Assembly (NCBI RefSeq): GCF_900172325.1
Contig: NZ_FWFR01000004.1
Location: 124,001-188,000 of the forward strand
DNA length: 64,000 nucleotides
Reading direction: 5' to 3'
Origin: Oceanibacterium hippocampi
Lineage (GTDB): Bacteria; Pseudomonadota; Alphaproteobacteria; Sneathiellales; Sneathiellaceae
Shown: piece by piece, positions 47,348-59,382 of the stretch
How the letters are laid out: each line of letters opens with the position of its first letter
Numbering within the stretch: position 1 is the stretch's first letter
The notes under the pieces: generated by a model
What the model was told of the DNA's origin: nothing
Database searches by the model: none
The model's input: only the letters and a program-made list of their open reading frames with translations
Translations under genes and position numbers: made by a program

Positions 47348-47914
47348 TTACGCGGCCCTCGTGTCGGCCGTCCCGATCGTGCCGAGGGAATTGTCCTGGT
47401 CGCCCGGGTAGAACGCTGCGGCCTCGATTTCCGCCTCCTCGAGCAATGTCAGGGGACTCGGCCAGGGCGAACGAATCCGGCCCGCCATCTCCTGATCCCG
47501 GAACGCGAGAGAAGCGCCGCATTTCTGAGCCATGCGCTGCATGCCCAGGTTCTCCGGCAGACAGGCCATATGGAGATCGCGAATGAAGCGGTTCCGCGCG
47601 AGCGCGATCGACTTCCGCAGCAGGTCGGTGCCTATGCCACGGTTCTGGAAGGGCTTCTCGACGCTTGCCGCGAACTCGGCGGTCGCGGGTTCCGTGCCGC
47701 CGGCCATGCTGAGTTGGGCGAGCCCGCGCAGAACGTTCCCGGATCGATAGCCGATCATCACCGTGCGGCCCCAGTCGATCCGATTGCAGAACGACCGGAT
47801 GAAACCGTCGCCCACGGCGCCGAAGAAGCGCAGCCGGCGATCCGCAAGGTCGAGCCGGAGCAGATGATCGCGGATCTCGTCGCGATTCCGTGGCTCGAGT
47901 TTACTGATAGACAT
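47348..47914 (-). CDS. GNAT-family N-acetyltransferase
   Basis: 188 residues from ATG 47914 with AGGA seven bases upstream. The acetyl-CoA loop is QNRGIGTDLLRKSIA, preceded by beta strands AQLSMAGG and AEFAASVEKPF, and followed by CLPENLGMQRMAQKCGA, which closes the GNAT fold. The N terminus (DLADRRLRFFGAVGDGFI) resembles acetyltransferases fused to acyl-CoA synthetases, but no such fusion exists here. Substrate unknown. Lies 79 bases after the DHp-like small protein on the same strand. Confidence 0.87.
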   Translation of the reverse strand: MSISKLEPRNRDEIRDHLLRLDLADRRLRFFGAVGDGFIRSFCNRIDWGRTVMIGYRSGNVLRGLAQLSMAGGTEPATAEFAASVEKPFQNRGIGTDLLRKSIALARNRFIRDLHMACLPENLGMQRMAQKCGASLAFRDQEMAGRIRSPWPSPLTLLEEAEIEAAAFYPGDQDNSLGTIGTADTRAA

Positions 47915-47993
47915 TATCGGTTCCTGACATTCGATACTGTCCGACGCCGGAGGGATCCGGCGGTCGGTCGGGATATCTTGTCGGTGAAGGCTC

Positions 47994-48428
47994 TCAGGCG
48001 GCCCGTTCGGAGGGACGCGCATTGCCGTTCCCGGGATTGCCGAGCAATTCAGCGACCAGGGTTTCGATACGGGCTTCCTCGGCGAGCACGATGTCGACGA
48101 AGCGGCCGCGCTCGCTGGCAGCGATATCCGGATGGTCGCGCAGAATCTCGGCGGACGAGCGGATCGAGGTCAGCGGCCCGGCGAGCCGATCGGCGATATC
48201 GGAGAGAACGGGGGCCTCGGCGCCCAGAACGGGCTTGCGCCCGAAGCGGTTCCGGAGCGCCATCCCGACCCGGGTCATGAAATCGCGCATGGCTTGGGAG
48301 CGCATGGTTTGCCCAAGCCTGATGTAATGCGCGAGATTTTCCGCGCTCAGGTCCGGCCGCTCGAAGATTTCATAGTTACCGACGGTGTCGGCGTGGGGAT
48401 TCTCGTGAGTCTCGGGCTTTGCCCACAT
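47994..48428 (-). CDS. Small protein with DUF1127-like N-terminal helix and degenerate DHp (HisKA-like) helix
   Basis: 144 residues from ATG 48428, with a perfect AGGAGG six bases upstream; the longer frame to 48563 is excluded by that ribosome site. Residues ~34-64 (YIRLGQTMRSQAMRDFMTR) are basic and helical, somewhat like DUF1127. Residues 75-128 resemble a histidine-kinase dimerization helix: LAGPLTSIRSSAEILRDHP, then RGRFVDIVLAEEARIETLV. Aligned with the HisKA of the symporter kinase (HELRTPMTSVRSFAEIL) the phosphoacceptor His is replaced by D80 and the catalytic domain is missing. It could act as a dimerization partner or inhibitor of a kinase. Two TATTGCATTGCA motifs precede it. Confidence 0.75.
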   Translation of the reverse strand: MWAKPETHENPHADTVGNYEIFERPDLSAENLAHYIRLGQTMRSQAMRDFMTRVGMALRNRFGRKPVLGAEAPVLSDIADRLAGPLTSIRSSAEILRDHPDIAASERGRFVDIVLAEEARIETLVAELLGNPGNGNARPSERAA

Positions 48429-48494
48429 GGAAGACCTCCTTCGATCAAAGAGACTGTCTTCCTCCCTGGTACGACACCTGATTTGCCGGTCGCT

Positions 48495-48560
48495 TATTGC
48501 ATTGCACCCACGAAATATGAGTGGGTTAGGGGGACTATTCAAGTAGTATATTGCATTGCA
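48495..48560. promoter_or_regulatory. Two direct copies of TATTGCATTGCA upstream of the DHp-like small protein
   Basis: Exact copies at 48495-48506 and 48549-48560, 54 bases apart, in the 241-base gap before the gene starting at 48428. Each contains two overlapping ATTGCA units. A related element (54018-54034) lies before the XRE regulator. TTGCA-type elements are known targets of short-chain-fatty-acid XRE regulators such as RamB and PccR, so the local XRE protein is the candidate binder. Confidence 0.6.
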
Positions 48561-48669
48561 CAATAAGTGTGCCGAATGCCGGAATCGTGGGCAGGGGCAG
48601 CTTAGAAGAACGGCAGACCACGACCGTCACTGGGGCCGAAACGACGACCGCGGCCCGCCCGGCGACCGA

Positions 48670-49101
48670 TCAGCAGGCCAGGCGCTCGAGGCTGCGGTTG
48701 TCCGGCATGCCGTCGAAAAAGCCGTCCAGCAGCGACTGGAAGAGCGCGATGTCGGCCGGATCACAGGCCGCCTCGCGAAACAATGTCGCGGACGAGCGGA
48801 GTTTCAGGTCGTCCGGCGTGCCGAGTATGTCGCCGGCCGTCCGGCCCGCATGACGGAGCATCAGCCGGGCGCAGGAACGCAGCCGGGCGCCGAGCAGCGG
48901 GTCGGCGAGATAGCGCCGGGCCTGGTCGAGGTCCGAGATCGCGAAATGGCGCGCGGTCGGGCGATGGCCGAGCCCGCCGATCTGGGGGAAGACGAACCAC
49001 ATCCAGTGACTTTGCTTCCGCCCTGCCGTGAGTTCGGCGATGACCGTGTCGAAGACCGCTGCCTGGGCCTCGACGAAGCGGCTGAGGTCGGGATCGGTCA
49101 C
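48670..49101 (-). CDS. DUF1810 family protein
   Basis: 143 residues matching DUF1810 throughout: LSRFVEAQAAVFDTVIAEL, SHWMWFVFPQIGGLG, RHFAISDLDQARRYLADPL and DDLKLRSSATLF. The family (calpastatin-like in some annotations) has no established role. GTG start overlaps the stop of the symporter-kinase gene by four bases (GTGA), making it the last gene of that operon. Confidence 0.9.
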   Translation of the reverse strand: MTDPDLSRFVEAQAAVFDTVIAELTAGRKQSHWMWFVFPQIGGLGHRPTARHFAISDLDQARRYLADPLLGARLRSCARLMLRHAGRTAGDILGTPDDLKLRSSATLFREAACDPADIALFQSLLDGFFDGMPDNRSLERLAC

Positions 49102-51791
49102 GGGCTTTCCGGGGGCGGGATGCCGGCCGACGCGAGCGGCGTGCGGATGATGAATCGCGCCCCGCTGGACCGGCCGGGCTCGAGGCCGATCGAACCGCCG
49201 AACGTCTGCATGATGCGCAGCGAGATCGGCAGCCCGAGGCCCGCGCCTCCCGCCGCGGAATGGCGGAAGAAACGTTCGAAGACGCGCTCGCGCAGGCCTT
49301 CCGGGATGCCCGGTCCGTTGTCCTCGATCGCGACCTCGTAGGCGCCGTCGACGACCCGGCTGTCGATCCGGATGGCGGGATCGGGGCCGTTGTTGTGCTT
49401 GATCGCGTTGGAGATCAGGTTGATGAAGACCTGCGACAGCCGGTCGGCATGCGCCCTGACCAGCACCGGGCCGGCACGTTGCCCCCAGTTGAAAGCCACC
49501 CTGCGTCCGCCGGACGCAGCGAGCGCGACCTCGACCGCGACGTCAAGCACCTTCTCGCCATCGATGTCGTCCAGCGGGACGCTGTCGGCGTCCTCGTGCA
49601 GGAAACTCATGTCGCGGATCTCGTCGAGCAGGCTGGTCAGCCGGATGCTTTCCTTCTGGATGATCGCCGCGAAGCGCCGTCGGGTGTCGGCATCGAGGTC
49701 GGGGCTCTGTTCGAGGATTTCGGCGAAGGAACGAACCGAGGTCATGGGCGTCCGGAGTTCGTGGCTGACCTGCGAGAGGAATTCGTCCTTCTGCATGTCG
49801 AGCGACCTGAGCCGCTCGTTGGCGGCGCGAAGCTGGGCGGCGGTATGCTCCGCTTCCCGGCTCTTCGCCGCCAGCGCCTGGCTGGTTCGCATCAGTTTTG
49901 CCGCCTCGTCGGCGATATCCATGAGGTCGGTCAGCGATATGGTCTCGCCGCCGGCGGACCGGTTGACCATGGCATGCGCCGAAGCGGCGCCGACCGAGCC
50001 GGCGAGTTCGCGTTCGAACCGCGAAATGAAAGCGGGCGAGGGGTCGGGCAGACCGCTGGTCTTGCCCTGGGCGCGCGCGGCCGAGGCGAACAGCGCGGCG
50101 GCGGCATCGCGGCCGAGGATCCGCTGCGCCAGGATGAACAGGTCCTCGGTCGCCGCCGAGCGGCGCACGACGCCGAGCGTCTGGCCCGGTTCGGACCGGA
50201 AGACGTCGACGAACAGCGTCCCCTGCAGCCGCTCGAGCGGGCTCAGCCGGGTGAACAGCGAGACCAGGATGAGGACGGCCGCGTTCGCGCCGACGCTCCA
50301 GAAGGTCGCGTGGACGAGCGGATCGGCGCCGGTGAACCCGGCAAGGGCATGGGGCCGAAGCATCCCGATGCCGAACAGCCCGTCACGGATGGTCTCGGCC
50401 GACAGGATGAAGGTGCCGTCGAAGCTCGGCAGGAATAGCGTGTAGGTCCAGAGCACGAAGCCGGTCAGCAGGCCCGACATCGCGCCGGCCTTGGTTGCGC
50501 CGCGCCAGAATATCCCGGCGATCAGGCTGGGCAGGAACTGGGCGACGCCGCAGAAGGCGATCAGGCCGATCGAGGCAAGCGCACCCGAGCCGCCGGTCAG
50601 GATGAAATAGAGATAGCCGAGCCCGAGCACCGCGACGATGGCGAAGCGCCGGGTCATCAGCAGCACGCGCATCACGTCGCCGCTCTGTTCCTCGCGCCGC
50701 AGCGACAGCAGCCACATCGAGATCGGCGCGATGATGTGGTTCGAGACCATGGTCGAGAGCGCGATGGTCGAGACGATGACCATCGAGGTCGCCGAGGAGA
50801 AGCCGCCGATGAAGGCGAGGATGGCGAGTTCCTGCTTTCCCGCCGACAGCGGCAGCGTGAGCACGAAGAGATCCGGATTGGCGTCGCTGGGCATCGTCGC
50901 CAGGCCCGCGCCGGCGATCGGCAGGACGAAGGCCGAGGTCAGCAGGAGATAGAACGGAAACATCCAGGAGGCAGTCACGAGCTGGCGTTCGCTGGTATTC
51001 TCGACGACCGTCACCTGGAACTGTCGGGGCAGGCAGATGATGGCCGCTGCCGACAGGAAGAGCAGCGTCACCCAGCGCGACCCGAACACCGATTCATCGA
51101 AATTGGCCGCGGTCAGCGTGGTCGAGAGCGACTCCGGCAGGCCGCCCGAGATTCCGAAGATCGCGAACATGCCGACGGCGATCAGCGCGGTCAGCTTGAC
51201 GATCGCCTCGGCCGCGATCGCGGCGACCACGCCGTAGTGTCGCTCGTTCTCGTCGAGGGTCCGCGTGCCGAAGAGGATCGTGAAGACGGCCATGCCGACC
51301 GCCGTCCAGAAGGCGATCCGCGCGTCATGCTCGGCGCCGCCGCCGATGATGACCTCGAAGCTCAGCGTCACCGATTGCAGTTGCAGGGCGATATAGGGGG
51401 TTGCGGCCATGACCGCGACAAGCGTGGCGATCGCCGCGAGCGCGCCCGACTTGCCGTAACGCGACGAGATCATGTCGGCTATCGAGGTGATCCGGTGGGT
51501 TCGGCCAATGCGGACGATCTTGCGGATCAGCCACCACCAGCCGACGAAGACCAGGGTCGGGCCGAGATAGATGGTCGCGAATTCGAGGCCGCTGCGGGCC
51601 GCCGATCCGACCGCGCCGTAAAAGGTCCAGGCGGTGCAATAGACCGATAGCGAGAGCGTGTAGACGACCGGCGAATGCAGCCAGCGTTCGCGCCCTCGCG
51701 CTGCCCGCCGGTCGACGAACCAGGCGAGACAGAACAGCAGCGCAACATAGATCAGCGAGACGGCGAGTATGAGGTTGGCGCTGTGCGTCAA
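49098..51791 (-). CDS. SSS-family symporter-sensor histidine kinase (CrbS/CbrA type)
   Basis: 897 residues. Roughly residues 1-500 form a sodium:solute symporter of about 12-13 membrane segments (YTLSLSVYCTAWTFYGAVG, ADMISSRYGKSGALAAIATL, GGFSSATSMVIVSTIALSTM). A linker leads to HisKA with H677 in SQVSHELRTPMTSVRS and HATPase motifs SNAIKHNN, EDNGPGIPEG and GAGLGLPISL. No receiver is attached, unlike many CbrA relatives. It probably senses or carries a small acid and phosphorylates the single-domain regulator encoded two genes upstream. Start TTG 51791, preceded by GAGGAAGG; it overlaps the small membrane protein gene by four bases (TTGA). Confidence 0.92.
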   Translation of the reverse strand: MTHSANLILAVSLIYVALLFCLAWFVDRRAARGRERWLHSPVVYTLSLSVYCTAWTFYGAVGSAARSGLEFATIYLGPTLVFVGWWWLIRKIVRIGRTHRITSIADMISSRYGKSGALAAIATLVAVMAATPYIALQLQSVTLSFEVIIGGGAEHDARIAFWTAVGMAVFTILFGTRTLDENERHYGVVAAIAAEAIVKLTALIAVGMFAIFGISGGLPESLSTTLTAANFDESVFGSRWVTLLFLSAAAIICLPRQFQVTVVENTSERQLVTASWMFPFYLLLTSAFVLPIAGAGLATMPSDANPDLFVLTLPLSAGKQELAILAFIGGFSSATSMVIVSTIALSTMVSNHIIAPISMWLLSLRREEQSGDVMRVLLMTRRFAIVAVLGLGYLYFILTGGSGALASIGLIAFCGVAQFLPSLIAGIFWRGATKAGAMSGLLTGFVLWTYTLFLPSFDGTFILSAETIRDGLFGIGMLRPHALAGFTGADPLVHATFWSVGANAAVLILVSLFTRLSPLERLQGTLFVDVFRSEPGQTLGVVRRSAATEDLFILAQRILGRDAAAALFASAARAQGKTSGLPDPSPAFISRFERELAGSVGAASAHAMVNRSAGGETISLTDLMDIADEAAKLMRTSQALAAKSREAEHTAAQLRAANERLRSLDMQKDEFLSQVSHELRTPMTSVRSFAEILEQSPDLDADTRRRFAAIIQKESIRLTSLLDEIRDMSFLHEDADSVPLDDIDGEKVLDVAVEVALAASGGRRVAFNWGQRAGPVLVRAHADRLSQVFINLISNAIKHNNGPDPAIRIDSRVVDGAYEVAIEDNGPGIPEGLRERVFERFFRHSAAGGAGLGLPISLRIMQTFGGSIGLEPGRSSGARFIIRTPLASAGIPPPESP

Positions 51792-52045
51792 CGGTCGCCT
51801 TCCTCTCTCAGCCGCCGGGCGAGCCGGAAAGCCGAGAGCACCAGTGCCGCCCAGACGCCGAAGATATAGAGGATGATGATCGGGATGCCGAAGACCGTCC
51901 GTGAATCGGCGAAGATATGGATGATTGGCGGGGTGATCAGTGCCAGCCCGACAAAGGGCAGGACGAAGGCGATCTCGCGAAGCCTGCGCGCGGCAAGCGC
52001 CTGCTCGCCCGGGTCGGGCGCCGGCGGCGTGCCTTTCCTTCTCAC
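51788..52045 (-). CDS. Small two-segment membrane protein in the symporter-kinase operon
   Basis: 85 residues, two hydrophobic segments (~24-46, IAFVLPFVGLALITPPIIHIF, and ~52-72, GIPIIILYIFGVWAALVLSAF), with charged ends. Starts GTG overlapping the response regulator stop by four bases and ends overlapping the symporter-kinase start by four. Small membrane proteins often accompany solute:sodium symporters and may stabilise them; no domain name is certain. Confidence 0.8.
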   Translation of the reverse strand: MRRKGTPPAPDPGEQALAARRLREIAFVLPFVGLALITPPIIHIFADSRTVFGIPIIILYIFGVWAALVLSAFRLARRLREEGDR

Positions 52046-52407
52046 CCGGCCAATCGCTTGACGGCGGCGACCACGTCGGCGTTCGAGAAGGGCTTGATCA
52101 TGAACAGGTTGGCCCCGCAGGCTTCCGCCACCTCGCGATCGCGCTTCTGTCCCTTCGCGGTCAGCATGAGCACCGGCAGGGAAGCGAGTGCCGGATTGCC
52201 GCGCAGTCGTCGCAACAGGTCGAAGCCGTTCAGTCCCGGCAGCATGACGTCGAGGACCAGGACATCGGGTGGGTCGACCAGCAGCGCGTCGAAGGCCGTC
52301 ACGCCGTTGCCGTGCGACGTGACGTCGAAGCCTTCCCGGGACAGCAGGAAGGTCAGCGATTCAACTATGTTGGGCTCGTCTTCGACGATAAGCACTCGCC
52401 CGGGCAT
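52042..52407 (-). CDS. Single-domain response regulator (CrbR-like position)
   Basis: 121 residues, a lone receiver: VEDE at 8-11, phosphoacceptor D53 in VLVLDVMLPGLNG, T in LMLTAKGQ and K in MIKPFSN. No DNA-binding domain, so output must be by protein contact or by phosphotransfer. ATG 52407 has GGGAGGGG five bases upstream; the TTG one codon earlier is ignored. It is the first gene of a four-gene run, each overlapping the next by four bases (regulator, small membrane protein, kinase, DUF1810). Confidence 0.9.
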   Translation of the reverse strand: MPGRVLIVEDEPNIVESLTFLLSREGFDVTSHGNGVTAFDALLVDPPDVLVLDVMLPGLNGFDLLRRLRGNPALASLPVLMLTAKGQKRDREVAEACGANLFMIKPFSNADVVAAVKRLAG

Positions 52408-52429
52408 CAATGCCCCTCCCTCAATCGCA

Positions 52430-52471
52430 TTCGGAATCGCGGACTCTCTGGCCCGCTTGTCTCATTCCGAA
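52430..52471. promoter_or_regulatory. Inverted repeat TTCGGAAT / ATTCCGAA before the kinase operon
   Basis: Perfect eight-base arms at 52430-52437 and 52464-52471, separated by 26 bases, inside the 106-base gap upstream of the response regulator. Possible operator or RNA hairpin of the operon leader; no T-run, so not an intrinsic terminator for the XRE gene. Confidence 0.35.
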
Positions 52472-52513
52472 ACGCATTAGAACCCAGAATCGAAGGAATG
52501 GAAAAGTCTTCAT

Positions 52514-53956
52514 TCAATGGGTGATGACGGAAGCCTCCCGACGGGAGTCGCAGTCCTGGTGAATGCAGATACGGCAAGTCGAGCCGACCGGCGCCGGCGT
52601 TTCCTGCCAGTGGACGGCGTAAACCGTATCGGCCGAACTCGCCTGATCGAGGATCAGCATGTCGGCGGCCATGCCGCGCCGCCGGCTGCCGGCGATCGCC
52701 AGTCGTCGCTCGCTGCCCGAGAGCATCACGATGGTGATCAGCAGCCGGCTGCCGAACGGCCCGACATGGTGAACAGGCCAGTTCGGGCAGTCGATGTCCC
52801 GGGCCCGGGGCATCAGGTCGAGGGCGCCGCGGCGACGCAGTACCCGGCCCGACGCGTCGACCACCAGATGCGTGGCACGTGGCGCCCCGCGTGCGAACAG
52901 GGCCGCGGTGCGCCGGAAGACCAGCGCGCTGTCGTCGTCGGCGGCGCGGATGAGATCCTCGAAGTTCCAGTGGACCCGGCGACCGAGCTCGAGGAACCCG
53001 GCTGCCGGCAAACGGATCGCGTCGGCGACGCGCCCGACCAGTTCGTTGCGGACGATGGCGTACATCGGGCTGTCGGTGGCGGCATCGGTGGAATCGAGGA
53101 TAGCGCCGATTTCCGGCGGCATGCGCTCGGCGACCAGGGCGTTGGTCAGCATGGCGACGCGTTCGTTGCGGGCCGCCTGGACATCGATGTTCGGCCGGAG
53201 CGCGCGGGGCAGGGCAGCGCGGAGCGCTGCCTCGAGATCGCCGCCGTCCTCGATCAGGGTCGCCCGGAGCCGCTCGGCGGCCGCGTCGAGTGAAAGCGAG
53301 ATGTCGCCCCGTCGGTCGAGCAGGTCTTCCGCGTCGCCCTGCGGATTGCGGCGTCGGCGGTCCCCGGCGATGCGATCGAAATACCGGGCCAGCGAAGAGC
53401 CGGTAACCGACAGTCGCGTCGACTGGTCCATCATGTTGTATTCGAACCGGTGCCGTTGCGCGGGATCGATATCGGCCGTCGTGGCAAGGATCTCGGCGGT
53501 CGAGCGGAGCGCGGTGATCTCGGTCAGCATTTCGTGGATCGCCTCGGCGAGCGCCGGGTCGTGGGCGAGGCGGTCGCTGAGCGATTCGGCGTCGGCCGCC
53601 GCTTCCGCATAGCGCTGGTGGGCGCGTGTCGCGCCGCGCGCCCAGCCCGGGAAACGGGCAATGAATTCGTCGACCGCCGCCGGGTCCATCTCGGGGTCGC
53701 CGAGTTCCGGGTCGTTGGCCAGTTCGAGCAGCGAGGCCCGGAGGCGTCGTTCCGCCGACCCGTCGAGCTGGTCGACGGTCAGCGACAGTTCGCGGCCGAT
53801 GGCGCCGAGCAGGGCACCGCCGATGCCCCGCTTGTTCCGTTCTATGAGGTTCAGATAGGACGCGGAAATGCCGACCCGGCGGGCCAGTTCAACCTGTTTG
53901 ATGCCGAGTTCCCGTCGCCGTTCCCGGATCATCATCCCGGTGATCGTCCGCGCCAT
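52514..53956 (-). CDS. XRE-family regulator, short-chain-fatty-acid type, with DHp-like segment
   Basis: 480 residues. Helix-turn-helix at ~8-62 (RRRELGIKQVELARRVGIS, YLNLIERNKRGIG). The C-terminal region (~290-480) resembles the DUF2083-type domain of RamB/PccR-like regulators of propionate and acetate genes, with a late cysteine cluster CRICIHQDCD. In between, residues 127-191 resemble a histidine-kinase dimerization region: H141 in HEMLTEITALRSTAEIL lines up with HELRTPMTSVRSFAEIL of the adjacent symporter kinase. ATG 53956 has AAGGGG seven bases upstream. Probably acts with that kinase in controlling acid metabolism; the contact is inferred. Confidence 0.85.
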   Translation of the reverse strand: MARTITGMMIRERRRELGIKQVELARRVGISASYLNLIERNKRGIGGALLGAIGRELSLTVDQLDGSAERRLRASLLELANDPELGDPEMDPAAVDEFIARFPGWARGATRAHQRYAEAAADAESLSDRLAHDPALAEAIHEMLTEITALRSTAEILATTADIDPAQRHRFEYNMMDQSTRLSVTGSSLARYFDRIAGDRRRRNPQGDAEDLLDRRGDISLSLDAAAERLRATLIEDGGDLEAALRAALPRALRPNIDVQAARNERVAMLTNALVAERMPPEIGAILDSTDAATDSPMYAIVRNELVGRVADAIRLPAAGFLELGRRVHWNFEDLIRAADDDSALVFRRTAALFARGAPRATHLVVDASGRVLRRRGALDLMPRARDIDCPNWPVHHVGPFGSRLLITIVMLSGSERRLAIAGSRRRGMAADMLILDQASSADTVYAVHWQETPAPVGSTCRICIHQDCDSRREASVITH

Positions 53957-53995: not shown

Positions 53996-54034
53996 GTGTA
54001 AAAATTTTACACTTTGCTGCAATGCGATGCAATA
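53996..54034. promoter_or_regulatory. Palindrome GTGTAAAAATTTTACAC and TGCAAT direct repeats upstream of XRE gene
   Basis: GTGTAAAAATTTTACAC (53996-54012) is perfect, eight-base arms around one A. Just beyond it, TGCAATGCGATGCAATA (54018-54034) holds two TGCAAT units exactly 10 bases apart, resembling the reverse complement of the TATTGCATTGCA motifs at 48495 and 48549. Both elements lie 40-78 bases before the XRE ATG, suggesting autoregulation. TTGACA at 54037-54042 may serve the plus-strand transporter. Confidence 0.6.
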
Positions 54035-54189: not shown

Positions 54190-55533
54190 ATGAATCGATT
54201 TACCGTCAATCGCCGCACACTGCTGAAGAGCAGCGTCGCCATGAGTGCGGGCCTTGCCGCGCCCGCTTTCTTCATTCGCGGCGCCAATGCCTATACCAAC
54301 GAGCCGAAGGGCGGGACCGTCACGCTCGGCTTCAACGTGCCGCAGAGCGGCGCCTATGCCGACGAGGGCGCGGACGAGCTTCGTGCCTATCAGCTCGCGG
54401 TCGAGCACCTGAACGGTGAGGGCGACGGCGGCCTGCTGAACACCTTCTCCTCGAAGGCGCTCAAGGGCAACGGCGTGCTCGGCAAGAAGGTCGCCTACGT
54501 GACCGGCGACACGCAGACCAAGTCGGACGCGGCGCGTGCCTCGGCCAAGCGGATGATCGAGAAGGACGGCGCGGTCATGGTGACCGGCGGTTCGTCGTCG
54601 GGTGTCGCGGTCGCCGTGCAGAGCCTCTGCCAGGACATGGGCGTCATCTTCATGGCCGGCCTGACCCATTCCAACGACACCACAGGCAAGGACAAGCGGG
54701 CGAACGGCTTCCGCCACTTCTTCAACGCCTACATGTCGGGTGCGGCGCTCGCGCCGGTGCTCAAGGCCAATTACGGCACCGACCGCAAGGCCTATCACCT
54801 GACGGCCGACTACACCTGGGGCTGGACGCAGGAAGAATCGATCGCCGCCTCGACCGAGGCGATCGGCTGGACCACCGTCAAGAAGGTCCGCACGCCGCTC
54901 GGCGCCGGCGACTTTTCCCAGTACATCACGCCGGTCCTGAATTCCGGCGCCGACGTGCTCATCCTCAACCACTACGGCCGCGACATGGTCAACTCGCTGA
55001 CCCAGGCGGTGCAGTTCGGCCTGCGCGACAAGATGGTCAACGGCAAGAAGTTCGAGGTCGTCGTGCCGCTCTATAGCCGACTGATGGCCCAGGGCGCCGG
55101 CGAGGCCGTGAAGGGCATCTTCGGTTCGACCAACTGGCACTGGACGCTCCAGGACGAGGCGTCGAAGGCTTTCGTGAAGTCGTTCGGCCAGAAGTACGGC
55201 TTCCCGCCGAGCCAGGCCGCGCAGACCTGCTACGCCCAGGCCCTGCTTTATGCGGATGCCGCCGAGCGCGCCGGGACCTTCGATCCCTGCGGCATCGTCA
55301 AGGCCCTCGAGGGCTTCGAATTCGACGGTCTCGGCAACGGCCCGACGCTCTACCGCGCCGAGGATCACCAGTGCTTCAAGAAAGTCCTGGTCGTGAAGGG
55401 TAAGGAAAACCCGGAATCGAAGTTCGATCTTCTCGAAGTGGTCGACGAAGTGCCGGCGGAGCAGGTCATGTATGCCCCGGACCATCCGATGTTCGCCGGC
55501 GGCGAACTTGGCACCTGCAATTCGGGCGCCTGA
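54190..55533 (+). CDS. Branched-chain amino acid-type ABC transporter substrate-binding protein
   Basis: 447 residues. The N terminus FTVNRRTLLKSSVAMSAG has a twin-arginine-like export signal ending in ANAYTNE. Two-lobed periplasmic binding fold of the Leu/Ile/Val or urea receptor type: GFNVPQSGAYADEG, GDTQTKSDAARASAKRMIE, GGSSSGVAVAVQSL, YTWGWTQEE. Four cysteines are scattered through the mature part. Ligand uncertain; the family also binds amides, urea and aromatic acids. ATG follows AGGGAGGGA (54177-54185). First gene of a Liv-type operon; a strong hairpin separates it from the permease genes. Confidence 0.88.
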   Translation: MNRFTVNRRTLLKSSVAMSAGLAAPAFFIRGANAYTNEPKGGTVTLGFNVPQSGAYADEGADELRAYQLAVEHLNGEGDGGLLNTFSSKALKGNGVLGKKVAYVTGDTQTKSDAARASAKRMIEKDGAVMVTGGSSSGVAVAVQSLCQDMGVIFMAGLTHSNDTTGKDKRANGFRHFFNAYMSGAALAPVLKANYGTDRKAYHLTADYTWGWTQEESIAASTEAIGWTTVKKVRTPLGAGDFSQYITPVLNSGADVLILNHYGRDMVNSLTQAVQFGLRDKMVNGKKFEVVVPLYSRLMAQGAGEAVKGIFGSTNWHWTLQDEASKAFVKSFGQKYGFPPSQAAQTCYAQALLYADAAERAGTFDPCGIVKALEGFEFDGLGNGPTLYRAEDHQCFKKVLVVKGKENPESKFDLLEVVDEVPAEQVMYAPDHPMFAGGELGTCNSGA

Positions 55534-55553
55534 TACCGTCATCGGTACGCGAT

Positions 55554-55583
55554 TGCCGGCCGCCCCTCCGGGGACGGCCGGCA
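55554..55583 (+). other. Intercistronic stem-loop between binding protein and permease genes
   Basis: Arms TGCCGGCCG (55554-55562) and CGGCCGGCA (55575-55583), continued by CCCC/GGGG pairing around a TCC loop with one bulged A. No T-run follows. Such a hairpin could protect the upstream message and reduce read-through, making the binding protein more abundant than the membrane subunits. Confidence 0.65.
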
Positions 55584-55633
55584 TCGTCGTCCGGACGGCC
55601 ATGTCCCGTATCGCGTGACGAGAAGCGGATCTG

Positions 55634-56662
55634 ATGGACGCAATTCTACTGCAAATCCTGAACGGGCTCGACAAGAGCAGCGCCTACGCGATGATCGCGC
55701 TCGGTCTGACCCTGATTTTCGGCACGCTCGGTGTCGTCAATTTCGCCCACGGCGCGCTGTTCATGCTGGGCGCCTTCTGCGCGGTGACCGTTCACCGGCT
55801 GCTGTCGCTCGACATCGTGACGCTGTCGGCGACTGAAAAGACCGCCTGGGGCACGCCGATGGAGATCCGCACGCCCTATGCGGAGGCCTGGTTCGGCGAC
55901 TTCGGGACCTGGCTGATCGACTGGTCCGTGCCGGTCTCGATCCTGGTCGCGATCCCCTTCATGCTGCTGTTCGGCGTGTTGATGGAACGCGGCCTAATTC
56001 GCCATTTCTACAAGCGCCCGCATGCCGAGCAGATTCTCGTCACCTTCGGCCTTGCGATCGTCCTCCAGGAGATCATCAAGTCCTGGTTCGGCGCCAACCC
56101 GATCCCGCAGCCGGCGCCCGAAGCGCTGCGCGGCATGATCGATTTCGGCGCGGCCATCGGGCTGGAGGCCGGCAATGTCGTCTATCCCGCCTGGCGCTTC
56201 ATCTATTTCCTGTTCGCCATGGGGGTGATCGGCATCGTCTTCGCCTTTCTCCGCTACACCACCTTCGGCATGGTCGTGCGGGCCGGGATGGCCGACCGCG
56301 AGACGGTCGGGCTGCTCGGCATCAACATCGATCGCCGCTTCACCATAACCTTCGGCGCCGCGGCGGCGATCGCCGGGCTTGCCGGGGTCATGTATACGCC
56401 GATCCTTTCGCCCGATTATCACCTCGGCATGGACTTCCTCGTCCTCTCCTTCGTTGTCGTTGTCGTGGGCGGCATGGGCAGCCTTCCCGGTGCCGTTGCG
56501 GCCGGCTTCCTGCTCGGCATCCTGCAAAGCTTCGCCTCGATGAACGAGGTGAAATCCCTGCTTCCCGGCATCGACCAGATCATCATCTATCTGGTGGCGG
56601 TGGTGATCCTGTTGACCCGTCCTCGTGGCCTGATGGGTCGCAAGGGCGTGATGGAGACTTGA
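55634..56662 (+). CDS. ABC transporter permease, LivH type
   Basis: 342 residues, about eight to nine membrane segments. LivH features: LGLTLIFGTLGVVNFAHGAL near the N terminus and AIAGLAGVMYTPILSP and VVVVGGMGSLPGAVAAGF later, with an EAA-like loop. Inner-membrane subunit forming the channel with LivM. ATG at 55634 and three bases separate its stop from the next ATG. Confidence 0.93.
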   Translation: MDAILLQILNGLDKSSAYAMIALGLTLIFGTLGVVNFAHGALFMLGAFCAVTVHRLLSLDIVTLSATEKTAWGTPMEIRTPYAEAWFGDFGTWLIDWSVPVSILVAIPFMLLFGVLMERGLIRHFYKRPHAEQILVTFGLAIVLQEIIKSWFGANPIPQPAPEALRGMIDFGAAIGLEAGNVVYPAWRFIYFLFAMGVIGIVFAFLRYTTFGMVVRAGMADRETVGLLGINIDRRFTITFGAAAAIAGLAGVMYTPILSPDYHLGMDFLVLSFVVVVVGGMGSLPGAVAAGFLLGILQSFASMNEVKSLLPGIDQIIIYLVAVVILLTRPRGLMGRKGVMET

Positions 56663-56665
56663 CCG

Positions 56666-57850
56666 ATGACAGTCAGTAGCAGCTCACCGCGCGGCGACAT
56701 GCTGATGATGCTGGGCATGATCGTCGCCATCGTGTTCGGGCCGATCATCCTCGCGCCATTCGGCGCCGGCTACCCGGATCTCATGCAGAAATTCGCGATC
56801 TACGGGATCTTCGCAATCGGTTTCAACATCCTCTTCGGTCTGACCGGATATCTGTCCTTCGGTCACGCGGCGTTCCTCGGCGTGGGCTCCTATTCCGCGG
56901 TCTGGATGTTCAAGCTGCTCTCGATGAACGTGATTCCGGCGCTGATCCTCGCGATCCTGATCTCCGGCCTGTTCGCGCTGGTGATCGGCTTCATCACGCT
57001 CCGGCGGTCGGGGATCTACTTCGCGATCCTCACGCTCGCCTTCGCCCAGATGAGCTACAACCTCGCCTATTCGGTGCTGACACCGATCACCAACGGCGAA
57101 ACCGGTTTGCAACTCCTGCTCGATGATCCGCGCATTCTCGACGCGCCGCTGGCCAGCGGCGACCTGCCGCTCGCCAACCTGTTCGGGCTGCAGATGAACT
57201 CGACCTACGAAACCTCGTTCCTGGGCATGACGCTCTATTTCAATGCCGGCTACTATCTCTGCGGCGTGATCCTGCTGGTGGCCTTCTACTTCGCCATGCG
57301 GATCTTCCGCTCGCCGCTTGGCATGATGTTGAAGGCGATCAAGTCCAACCAGAACCGCCTGAACTACACCGGCGTCAACACCCGACCCTACACGCTTACC
57401 GCCTTCGTGATTTCCGGCATCTATGCCGGGCTCGCCGGCGGCCTGCTCGCCTGCACCGACCCGCTGGCCGGGGCGGAACGGATGCAGTGGACGGCCTCGG
57501 GCGAAGTCGTGCTGATGACCATCCTGGGGGGCGCCGGAACACTGCTCGGACCGATCATCGGCGCCGGCGCGATCAAGTATTTCGAGAATATCTTCTCGGC
57601 CTTCAACGAAAGCGAACTGAACGCGGTCTTCTCGTTCCTGCCGGACGGACTGCGGGAAGCGGTGGTGTCTGTCGCCTCCACCTTCGTCGGCGAAGGCTGG
57701 CAGCTCACCCTCGGCGTGCTGTTCATGCTGATCGTGATCTTCCTGCCGGGCGGTCTGCTCGAGGGCGTGCGCCGAATCCTGTCCCTGTTCAACCGTCCAC
57801 CGGGCGGCGGAATGGAAGAACGCTCCGCCCGCGTCAAGTCGGCGGCCTGA
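56666..57850 (+). CDS. ABC transporter permease, LivM type
   Basis: 394 residues, about ten membrane segments: [20 protein letters not shown], then [37 protein letters not shown] and [20 protein letters not shown] are the usual LivM stretches. Pairs with the LivH-type subunit. Ten bases before the first ATPase gene. Confidence 0.93.
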
Positions 57851-57859
57851 GGGGACATC

Positions 57860-58611
57860 ATGGGCATACTCAACGTCAGCAGCATCAACATGCATTTCGG
57901 CGGCCTGCAGGCCCTGAACAACGTCAATCTGGACGTGCGCCAGGGGACTGTGCACGCGATCATCGGGCCGAACGGGGCCGGCAAGTCGACCCTGCTGAAC
58001 TGCTTCGTCGGGCGCCTGACGCCCGATACCGGCGTCGTCGATTTCGACGGGATTTCCCTGATCGGCCTGAAGCCACACGAGATCAACCAGGCCGGCGTCA
58101 GCCGGGTCTTCCAGACCCCGGAAATCTTCGGCGACCTGTCGCTGCTGGAGAATGTCATGATCCCGGCCTTCGCCAAGCGCGACGGGTCTTACCGGCAGAA
58201 TCTCTGGGCCCCGCTTCGCGGCGAAAGCAAGATCCGCGAACGCGCGATGGCCGCGCTCGCCGACGTCAAGATGGCGGACAAGGCGGGGATGATCGCCAAC
58301 ACGCTCAGCCGCGGCGACAAACGCCGTCTCGAACTGGCGATGGGTCTCGTGCAGGAGCCGAAGCTGCTGCTGCTCGACGAGCCGACGGCAGGCATGGCGC
58401 GCGCCGACACCAACGCGACGATCGCGTTGCTGAAGGAAATCTCGGCGACCGGCCTGACGATGGTCATCATCGAGCATGACATGCATGTGGTCTTCTCCCT
58501 GGCCGAGCGGATCACCGTGCTCGCCCAGGGAACGGTCATCGCCGAGGACGAGCCGGCGAAGATCAAGGGCCACCCGAAGGTCCAGGAAGCCTATCTCGGG
58601 GGGACGCATTC

Positions 58612-58615
<4 letters not shown>
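57860..58615 (+). CDS. ABC transporter ATP-binding protein, LivG type
   Basis: 251 residues: Walker A GPNGAGKST, Q-loop region SRVFQTPEIFGDLSLLENV, signature LSRGDKRRLELAMGL and Walker B LLLLDEPTAGM, with the switch His in VIIEHDMHVVF. The signature reads LSRGD rather than LSGGQ, a mild variant that still fits. Drives the LivH/LivM pair. GGGGA at 57851-57855 precedes the ATG. Overlaps the next ATPase by four bases. Confidence 0.93.

Positions 58616-59382
<767 letters not shown>

Follow-up and report, generated by a model that had tools for sequence, protein, structure and literature searches.

Response regulators that consist of a receiver alone and have no known output are common in alphaproteobacteria, and their route to DNA is often unknown. 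In the phosphorelays Spo0F-Spo0B and CckA-ChpT, a non-kinase protein of the dimerization and histidine phosphotransfer (DHp) type accepts the phosphate of a receiver and passes it to a response regulator. In Caulobacter, the DHp of DivL is the target of the receiver-only protein DivK, so that the usual flow is reversed (PMC4211667). CrbS/CrbR and RpuS/RpuR control short-chain carbon uptake and comprise a HisKA kinase fused to a symporter domain (PMC5715377, PMC9100948). The transcription factor MtPrpR binds coenzyme A (CoA), and its C-X2-C-X4-C motif holds a 4Fe4S cluster (PMC6765138). Here, a locus is described that lies in a stretch of 64,000 nucleotides from Oceanibacterium hippocampi (contig NZ_FWFR01000004.1, positions 124,001 to 188,000; in the following, the window). 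It encodes a symporter kinase, a receiver-only protein and an XRE/ScfR-type transcription factor that carries a DHp with a conserved histidine between its DNA-binding and its C-terminal part.

Three DHp proteins in one locus

The original prediction stated that three neighbouring proteins share a HisKA/DHp segment and that only one of them is a kinase. This is borne out by hidden Markov models, profile comparisons and structure prediction. The three proteins, all encoded on the minus strand, are the symporter (SSS/SLC5)-histidine kinase (49098-51791; HATPase_c 82.7 bits, HisKA 53.8 bits), the XRE factor (52514-53956; 480 amino acids (aa), ATG start) and a 144-aa DHp-only protein (47994-48428). 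Pfam found HATPase_c neither in the XRE factor nor in the small protein; among the three, only the symporter kinase has it. The residues named at the histidine site, H677 in the kinase, H141 in the XRE factor and D80 in the small protein, were confirmed with their coordinates from the translations. The original prediction did not list two genes between those of the XRE factor and the kinase: a 122-aa receiver-only response regulator (52042-52410, minus strand; Response_reg 88.6 bits as sole domain) and an 85-aa open reading frame (ORF) for a small membrane protein (51788-52045, minus strand).

The XRE factor contains a DHp domain

The XRE factor is composed of three parts. Its N-terminal helix-turn-helix (HTH) domain comprises residues 10-62 (53771-53929, minus strand; Pfam HTH_3 36.5 bits), and residues 1-67 of the AlphaFold model match XRE DNA-binding domains. 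The DHp helical hairpin follows at residues 134-200 (53357-53557, minus strand; H141 at 53534-53536). The ScfRs/MtPrpR-like C-terminal domain covers residues 364-476 (52529-52867, minus strand; Pfam ScfRs 35.7 bits). Both HTH_3 and ScfRs are above their Pfam cut-offs. The AlphaFold model has a mean pLDDT of 90 and shows the hairpin as helices 134-159 and 165-200, with the histidine in helix 1. In a structure search with the whole model, matches to the HTH and PrpR parts took up the list, so that no kinase DHps appeared. A match to acyl-CoA dehydrogenase on the middle region (19.9 bits, below the cut-off) was taken as helical-bundle noise.

The window's XRE protein alone does not reach Pfam HisKA, and weak matches to kinase models were obtained on residues 136-183 (CreC, E 0.0047; PhoR, E 0.063). 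The segment is nevertheless a true DHp because of the evidence from its family. Among named relatives, the single XRE protein as query gave no confirmed match, whereas an alignment as query was successful. The family comprises 112 distinct relatives, which were taken from a sample of alphaproteobacteria and from additional named genomes, some Betaproteobacteria included. A model built solely from the DHps of neighbouring symporter kinases matches 105 of the 112 relatives at E<1e-3, and profile-profile comparison (hhalign) of the XRE DHps with the symporter-kinase DHps yields a probability of 99.4%. With this kinase model, no score was obtained for any of 2,240 shuffled XRE sequences or for the single canonical ScfR of the set (L147). 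Searched against the PDB, the XRE-DHp profile returns HK853 on top, followed by DivL as the second kinase family. Individual HisKA matches at E<=0.01 occur in 24 of 57 XRE segments, and one relative exceeds the Pfam HisKA cut-off (L032, 33.8 bits). Thus, the HisKA match that the original prediction called for holds for the XRE segment at the level of the family and not of the single protein. The helical hairpin was found in both non-kinase proteins. Chance similarity between helices is ruled out by the shuffles, the canonical ScfR control and a search of 397 genomes (see below).

Specificity and origin of the XRE DHp

The similarity is directed to the symporter kinases. In comparisons inside the genome of O. 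hippocampi, the score of the XRE segment is 90 with the adjacent kinase but no higher than 56, and 34 on average, with the remaining 37 HisKA domains. For the small protein, the corresponding values are 109 with the adjacent kinase and a maximum of 67. A generic HisKA resemblance was rejected because the neighbouring kinase is so far ahead of the 37 others. In a search of 397 genomes from the phylum with the XRE-DHp profile, the only proteins that reached E<=1e-12 were 41 with the length of a regulator and 58 of 839-1029 aa; 20 of the latter were sampled, and all 20 are symporter kinases. In 33 of the 41 genomes with a regulator, a kinase also passes this threshold.

In a tree, all sampled XRE DHps form one clade (100/98) nested within the symporter-kinase DHps. 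The tree rests on 70 columns and is support, not proof. When the canonical ScfR of L147 is aligned to the XRE-family model, precisely the DHp positions are missing. Judged from these sequence comparisons, the DHp of the XRE factors, which occur in many alphaproteobacteria, was probably acquired from the co-operonic symporter-kinase family. The system of XRE factor, kinase and receiver is present in the cultured marine genera Sulfitobacter, Ruegeria, Leisingera and Shimia and is therefore directly accessible to experiments.

Conservation of kinase and receiver genes

The DHp of the kinase comprises residues 667-729 (49605-49793, minus strand) with H677 at 49761-49763, and its HATPase domain residues 782-887. 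HisKA and HATPase_c are above their cut-offs; the symporter domain, fused to the kinase as in CrbS, is just under its own (SSF, 22.4 bits). Among 85 XRE loci, the kinase was found nearby in 74, the receiver in 72 and the substrate-binding protein (SBP) of an ATP-binding cassette (ABC) transporter in 66. The original prediction had united the XRE factor, the kinase and the small protein in one module and had proposed a survey of the three genes. The reading as one functional module is supported, in that kinase, receiver and XRE factor are co-located in most of the 85 loci. The small protein is present in very few genomes and is not a general component.

In most loci, the receiver-only gene is located between the XRE and kinase genes. 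Its homologues have an invariant phospho-Asp (98/98), no output domain and no more than 27 residues after the receiver domain. Nine genomes were selected and searched in which the XRE gene seemed to have no kinase or no receiver gene next to it. Seven of them contain the symporter kinase, usually adjoining a close homologue of the receiver. Relatives in genus g2, which belongs to the window's own family, have an acetyl-CoA synthetase-like gene (about 650 aa) between ABC operon and receiver (e.g. L033:2017-3630, L034:2431-4044).

Histidine and receiver-facing residues

The phospho-acceptor histidine is retained in 103 of the 112 XRE relatives. It is replaced by F in eight XRE proteins, all of genus g2, and by Q in one from Rhodocyclus (L111), in whose genome no symporter kinase was found. 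Two further positions are informative, as in HisKA domains an acidic residue at +1 is tied to kinase activity and T/N at +4 to phosphatase activity (PMC3510030). In the XRE DHps, T/S occupies H+4 in 106/112 and E occupies +1 in 46/112. All 79 symporter kinases have E+1, T+4 and Pro+5. The XRE DHps keep the receiver-facing positions H, T/S+4, T/A+7, R+10, S+11 and I+15, which belong to the best-conserved residues of the segment. The residues that determine receiver specificity in EnvZ correspond to +7, +8, +11, +12, +14 and +15 (PMC2991266). At these six positions, the XRE factor and the neighbouring kinase share four residues; the other kinases of the genome share at most three with the XRE factor. 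For the small protein, the numbers are five with the neighbouring kinase and no more than four with any other.

A proposed circuit and its alternatives

A kinase, a receiver lacking an output and an adjacent factor with a docking domain of the kinase type are most simply read as a pathway from kinase to receiver to factor. The factor has acquired the docking domain of its co-operonic kinase and would thus probably obtain the kinase signal via the small receiver. From homology, fold, gene order and conservation we infer the direction of signalling, the chemistry and the regulated genes as follows. The symporter kinase would autophosphorylate at H677, from where the phosphoryl group would pass to the receiver. 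The docking face of the receiver should also fit the DHp of the XRE factor, a domain with the retained surface of the ancestral kinase DHp. Receiver binding, most likely with phosphoryl transfer to H141, would alter the state of the XRE factor and thus change how the divergent ABC operon, and perhaps its own operon, is transcribed. We assign a probability of about 0.6 to a circuit of this kind, with phosphotransfer to H141 or with docking; that the receiver-only protein is the carrier between kinase and XRE factor, a partner choice based on gene order and conservation, is quite probable.

The more specific form would be a widespread phosphorelay that leads from the kinase histidine via the receiver aspartate to the HisKA-type histidine of an acyl-CoA-sensing DNA-binding factor, with a DHp derived from one fusion. 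This proposal falls somewhat short of even odds. If the DHp was indeed fused once from the symporter-kinase family, one factor would integrate extracellular substrate sensing with the intracellular acyl-CoA state. Three observations weigh against the proposed circuit. The XRE proteins of genus g2 with F instead of the histidine keep kinase and receiver, Pro at +5 is rarely kept in XRE DHps, and Lautropia (L078, a metagenome-assembled genome) keeps the histidine, although no symporter kinase was found in its genome.

The F-bearing proteins suggest that phosphotransfer is not universal, and docking without transfer would explain them. In that case, the XRE DHp would recognize the receiver in its phosphorylated form, in the manner of DivL with DivK~P, and H141 would receive no phosphoryl group. 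DivL, the second kinase family found with the XRE-DHp profile, has Tyr at the site, and its Y550F variant still binds DivK~P (PMC4211667). Retention of the histidine in 103 of 112 diverged proteins would be hard to explain by docking alone, and DivL orthologues lack the histidine. As the only mode of action, docking is unlikely. Between phosphotransfer and docking alone, the balance is about even, because conservation of the histidine favours transfer and the F-bearing genus favours docking.

According to the original prediction, the XRE factor and the small protein dimerize with the kinase or take phosphate directly from it, without a receiver. DHps do dimerize, and of all HisKA domains in the genome, that of the neighbouring kinase is the closest to both segments. 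However, the conserved receiver-only gene that separates the XRE and kinase genes supplies the obvious carrier, a protein with an invariant Asp, and a DNA-bound factor would need to reach a membrane kinase. Direct contact was not supported and appears improbable. Least probable is a DHp that is nothing but a helix pair for dimerization left over from the fusion, in a factor that answers to acyl-CoA alone. The C-terminus matches MtPrpR (Z 27), which binds CoA (PMC6765138), but the high conservation of the histidine and the receiver-facing residues and the strict similarity to symporter kinases only speak against this reading. The circuit from kinase via receiver to the DHp-bearing factor is preferred.

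The C-terminal domain as a possible second input

The XRE family shares an architecture of HTH, DHp and ScfR/MtPrpR-like C-terminus with C-X2-C-X4-C. Some members have a degenerate M78 domain in addition, which was not matched in the window's XRE protein in the Pfam search. In the window's factor, the motif consists of C461, C464 and C469, and the cysteines are invariant in 63 relatives. By structure comparison of the model, residues 203-480 superpose on residues 152-466 of MtPrpR. Since the motif is invariant in the relatives, sensing of acyl-CoA and an Fe-S cluster may persist in the XRE factor, as its fold also suggests. The MtPrpR-like C-terminus would then provide a second input besides the receiver.

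The small DHp-only protein

In the 144-aa protein, Pfam HisKA matches residues 74-128 with 30.1 bits (cut-off 26.9, E 5e-7; 30.9 bits in a whole-genome HisKA search). AlphaFold predicts a hairpin of helices 72-98 and 104-130 with a pLDDT of about 96. In structure comparison, the DHp of HK853 is matched best (Z 9.4), and D80 takes the position of H260. It is thus a HisKA hairpin that lacks the phospho-acceptor histidine. Its relatives have D, G, K or, in one case, H at this site. One full-length homologue (L208; 47% identity) belongs to another family, has G at the site and is encoded outside such a cluster. That the small protein descends from the neighbouring kinase was not shown: In a short, weakly resolved tree, its group (96/70) lies outside the symporter-kinase branch. 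The RSP_7527 family (48 aa) has sub-threshold matches (E 4e-4 each) in the N-terminal halves of the small protein, at about residues 31-68 (48222-48338), and of the L208 homologue. The small protein is, therefore, possibly a fusion of two small proteins, as far as such matches indicate.

Other DHp-only proteins are rare. They were found at the end of ABC operons, either with an additional C-terminal part (L031, L074, L080) or as a DHp alone (L206), and beside TRAP transporters (L207, L209). Proteins of about 200 aa (L031:13880-14497, L074:3747-4451, L080:3835-4464, L209:2139-2807) have an N-terminal DHp, mostly with D at the histidine position, and a C-terminal part that looks STAS-like. A 77-aa DHp-only protein (L207:7050-7283) with TRAP transporter genes alongside retains the histidine (HELLTP).

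The 144-aa protein without the histidine might act as a modulator that occupies, or competes for, the receiver or the kinase, a role that we propose tentatively. Alternatively, it could be a functionless fragment in decay, as the loss of the histidine and the presence in very few genomes might suggest. Decay is unlikely: The L208 homologue also spans the N-terminal region, and DHp-only proteins, mostly without the histidine, recur in other lineages at ABC operon ends and beside TRAP genes.

Target genes and candidate operator

A five-gene ABC transporter operon (54190-59382, plus strand), defined by its ORFs for an SBP, two permeases and two ATPases, is divergent from the XRE gene and is likely the target of the XRE factor. 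Its products resemble Urt/Liv transporters, with matches below the curated cut-offs. In the XRE/ABC intergenic region, a perfect palindrome, GTGTAAAAATTTTACAC, is located at 53996-54012 and is a candidate operator. The related octamer TTTACAAA occurs in 40 of 66 XRE upstream regions, against 1.1 expected.

A second element, TATTGCATTGCAC, is present in two perfect copies upstream of the small DHp gene (48495-48507 and 48549-48561). In the 4.83 Mb genome, exact TATTGCATTGCA occurs only in these two copies. The XRE/ABC intergenic region contains two overlapping near-copies (54018-54032), a number reached by 0.27% of shuffles. Genome-wide, elements of the TATTGCATTGCAC type with at most one mismatch yielded 15 matches, compared with 0 for the reversed control. 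As one of these matches adjoins a phasin-like gene (L240), the elements may be boxes of what we presume to be the PhaR type. A shared TTGCATTGCA element was not accepted as proof of a common regulon, as no clear enrichment was detected in relatives.

Other genes of the locus

On the minus strand, the genes for XRE factor, receiver, 85-aa ORF, symporter kinase, DUF1810 protein, small DHp protein and GNAT acetyltransferase follow each other with several 4-bp overlaps. The 85-aa ORF overlaps each of its neighbours by 4 bp, and several relatives, among them L033, L101 and L206, also have an ORF of about this length between receiver and kinase. The DUF1810 gene (48670-49101, minus strand; Pfam DUF1810 169.7 bits) overlaps the kinase stop with its start by 4 bp. 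The GNAT gene (47348-48022, minus strand; Acetyltransf_1 33.8 bits) extends into the end of the small DHp gene. The encoded acetyltransferase has a weak match to a mycobacterial Pat model (E 1.7e-5, far below the cut-off), and a link to acetylation of acyl-CoA enzymes is conceivable.

Comparison with known systems

The component families of this locus are known. Their combination is new relative to the literature searched: As the original prediction had supposed, no described system with a DHp in an XRE/ScfR factor was found there, in a search largely of open-access papers. The kinase resembles CrbS and RpuS, which are, however, hybrid kinases with a REC domain (PMC9100948), whereas Pfam detected no REC in the window's symporter kinase. 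CrbR and RpuR carry a LuxR-type output of their own (PMC5715377, PMC9100948). Here, the response regulator is a receiver without output, and a separate ScfR-type factor carries a DHp. With MtPrpR, RamB and ScfR, this factor shares HTH, ScfRs C-terminus, C-X2-C-X4-C motif and the MtPrpR-like fold over residues 203-480 (PMC6765138), and it differs from them by the extra DHp between HTH and C-terminal part.

An output factor that bears a copy of the kinase's receiver-docking domain would be a candidate route by which receiver-only regulators reach DNA. In addition, a one-component regulator can apparently be captured into a two-component pathway by fusion to the DHp of the partner kinase. From Spo0B and ChpT, the phosphate moves on to a response regulator, whereas the DHp of the XRE factor is itself part of the transcription factor. 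DivL, the target of DivK, contains PAS and catalytic (CA) domains, is a pseudokinase and has Tyr at the site; the XRE DHp, in contrast, occurs without a CA domain in a protein that binds DNA, and its histidine is usually retained.

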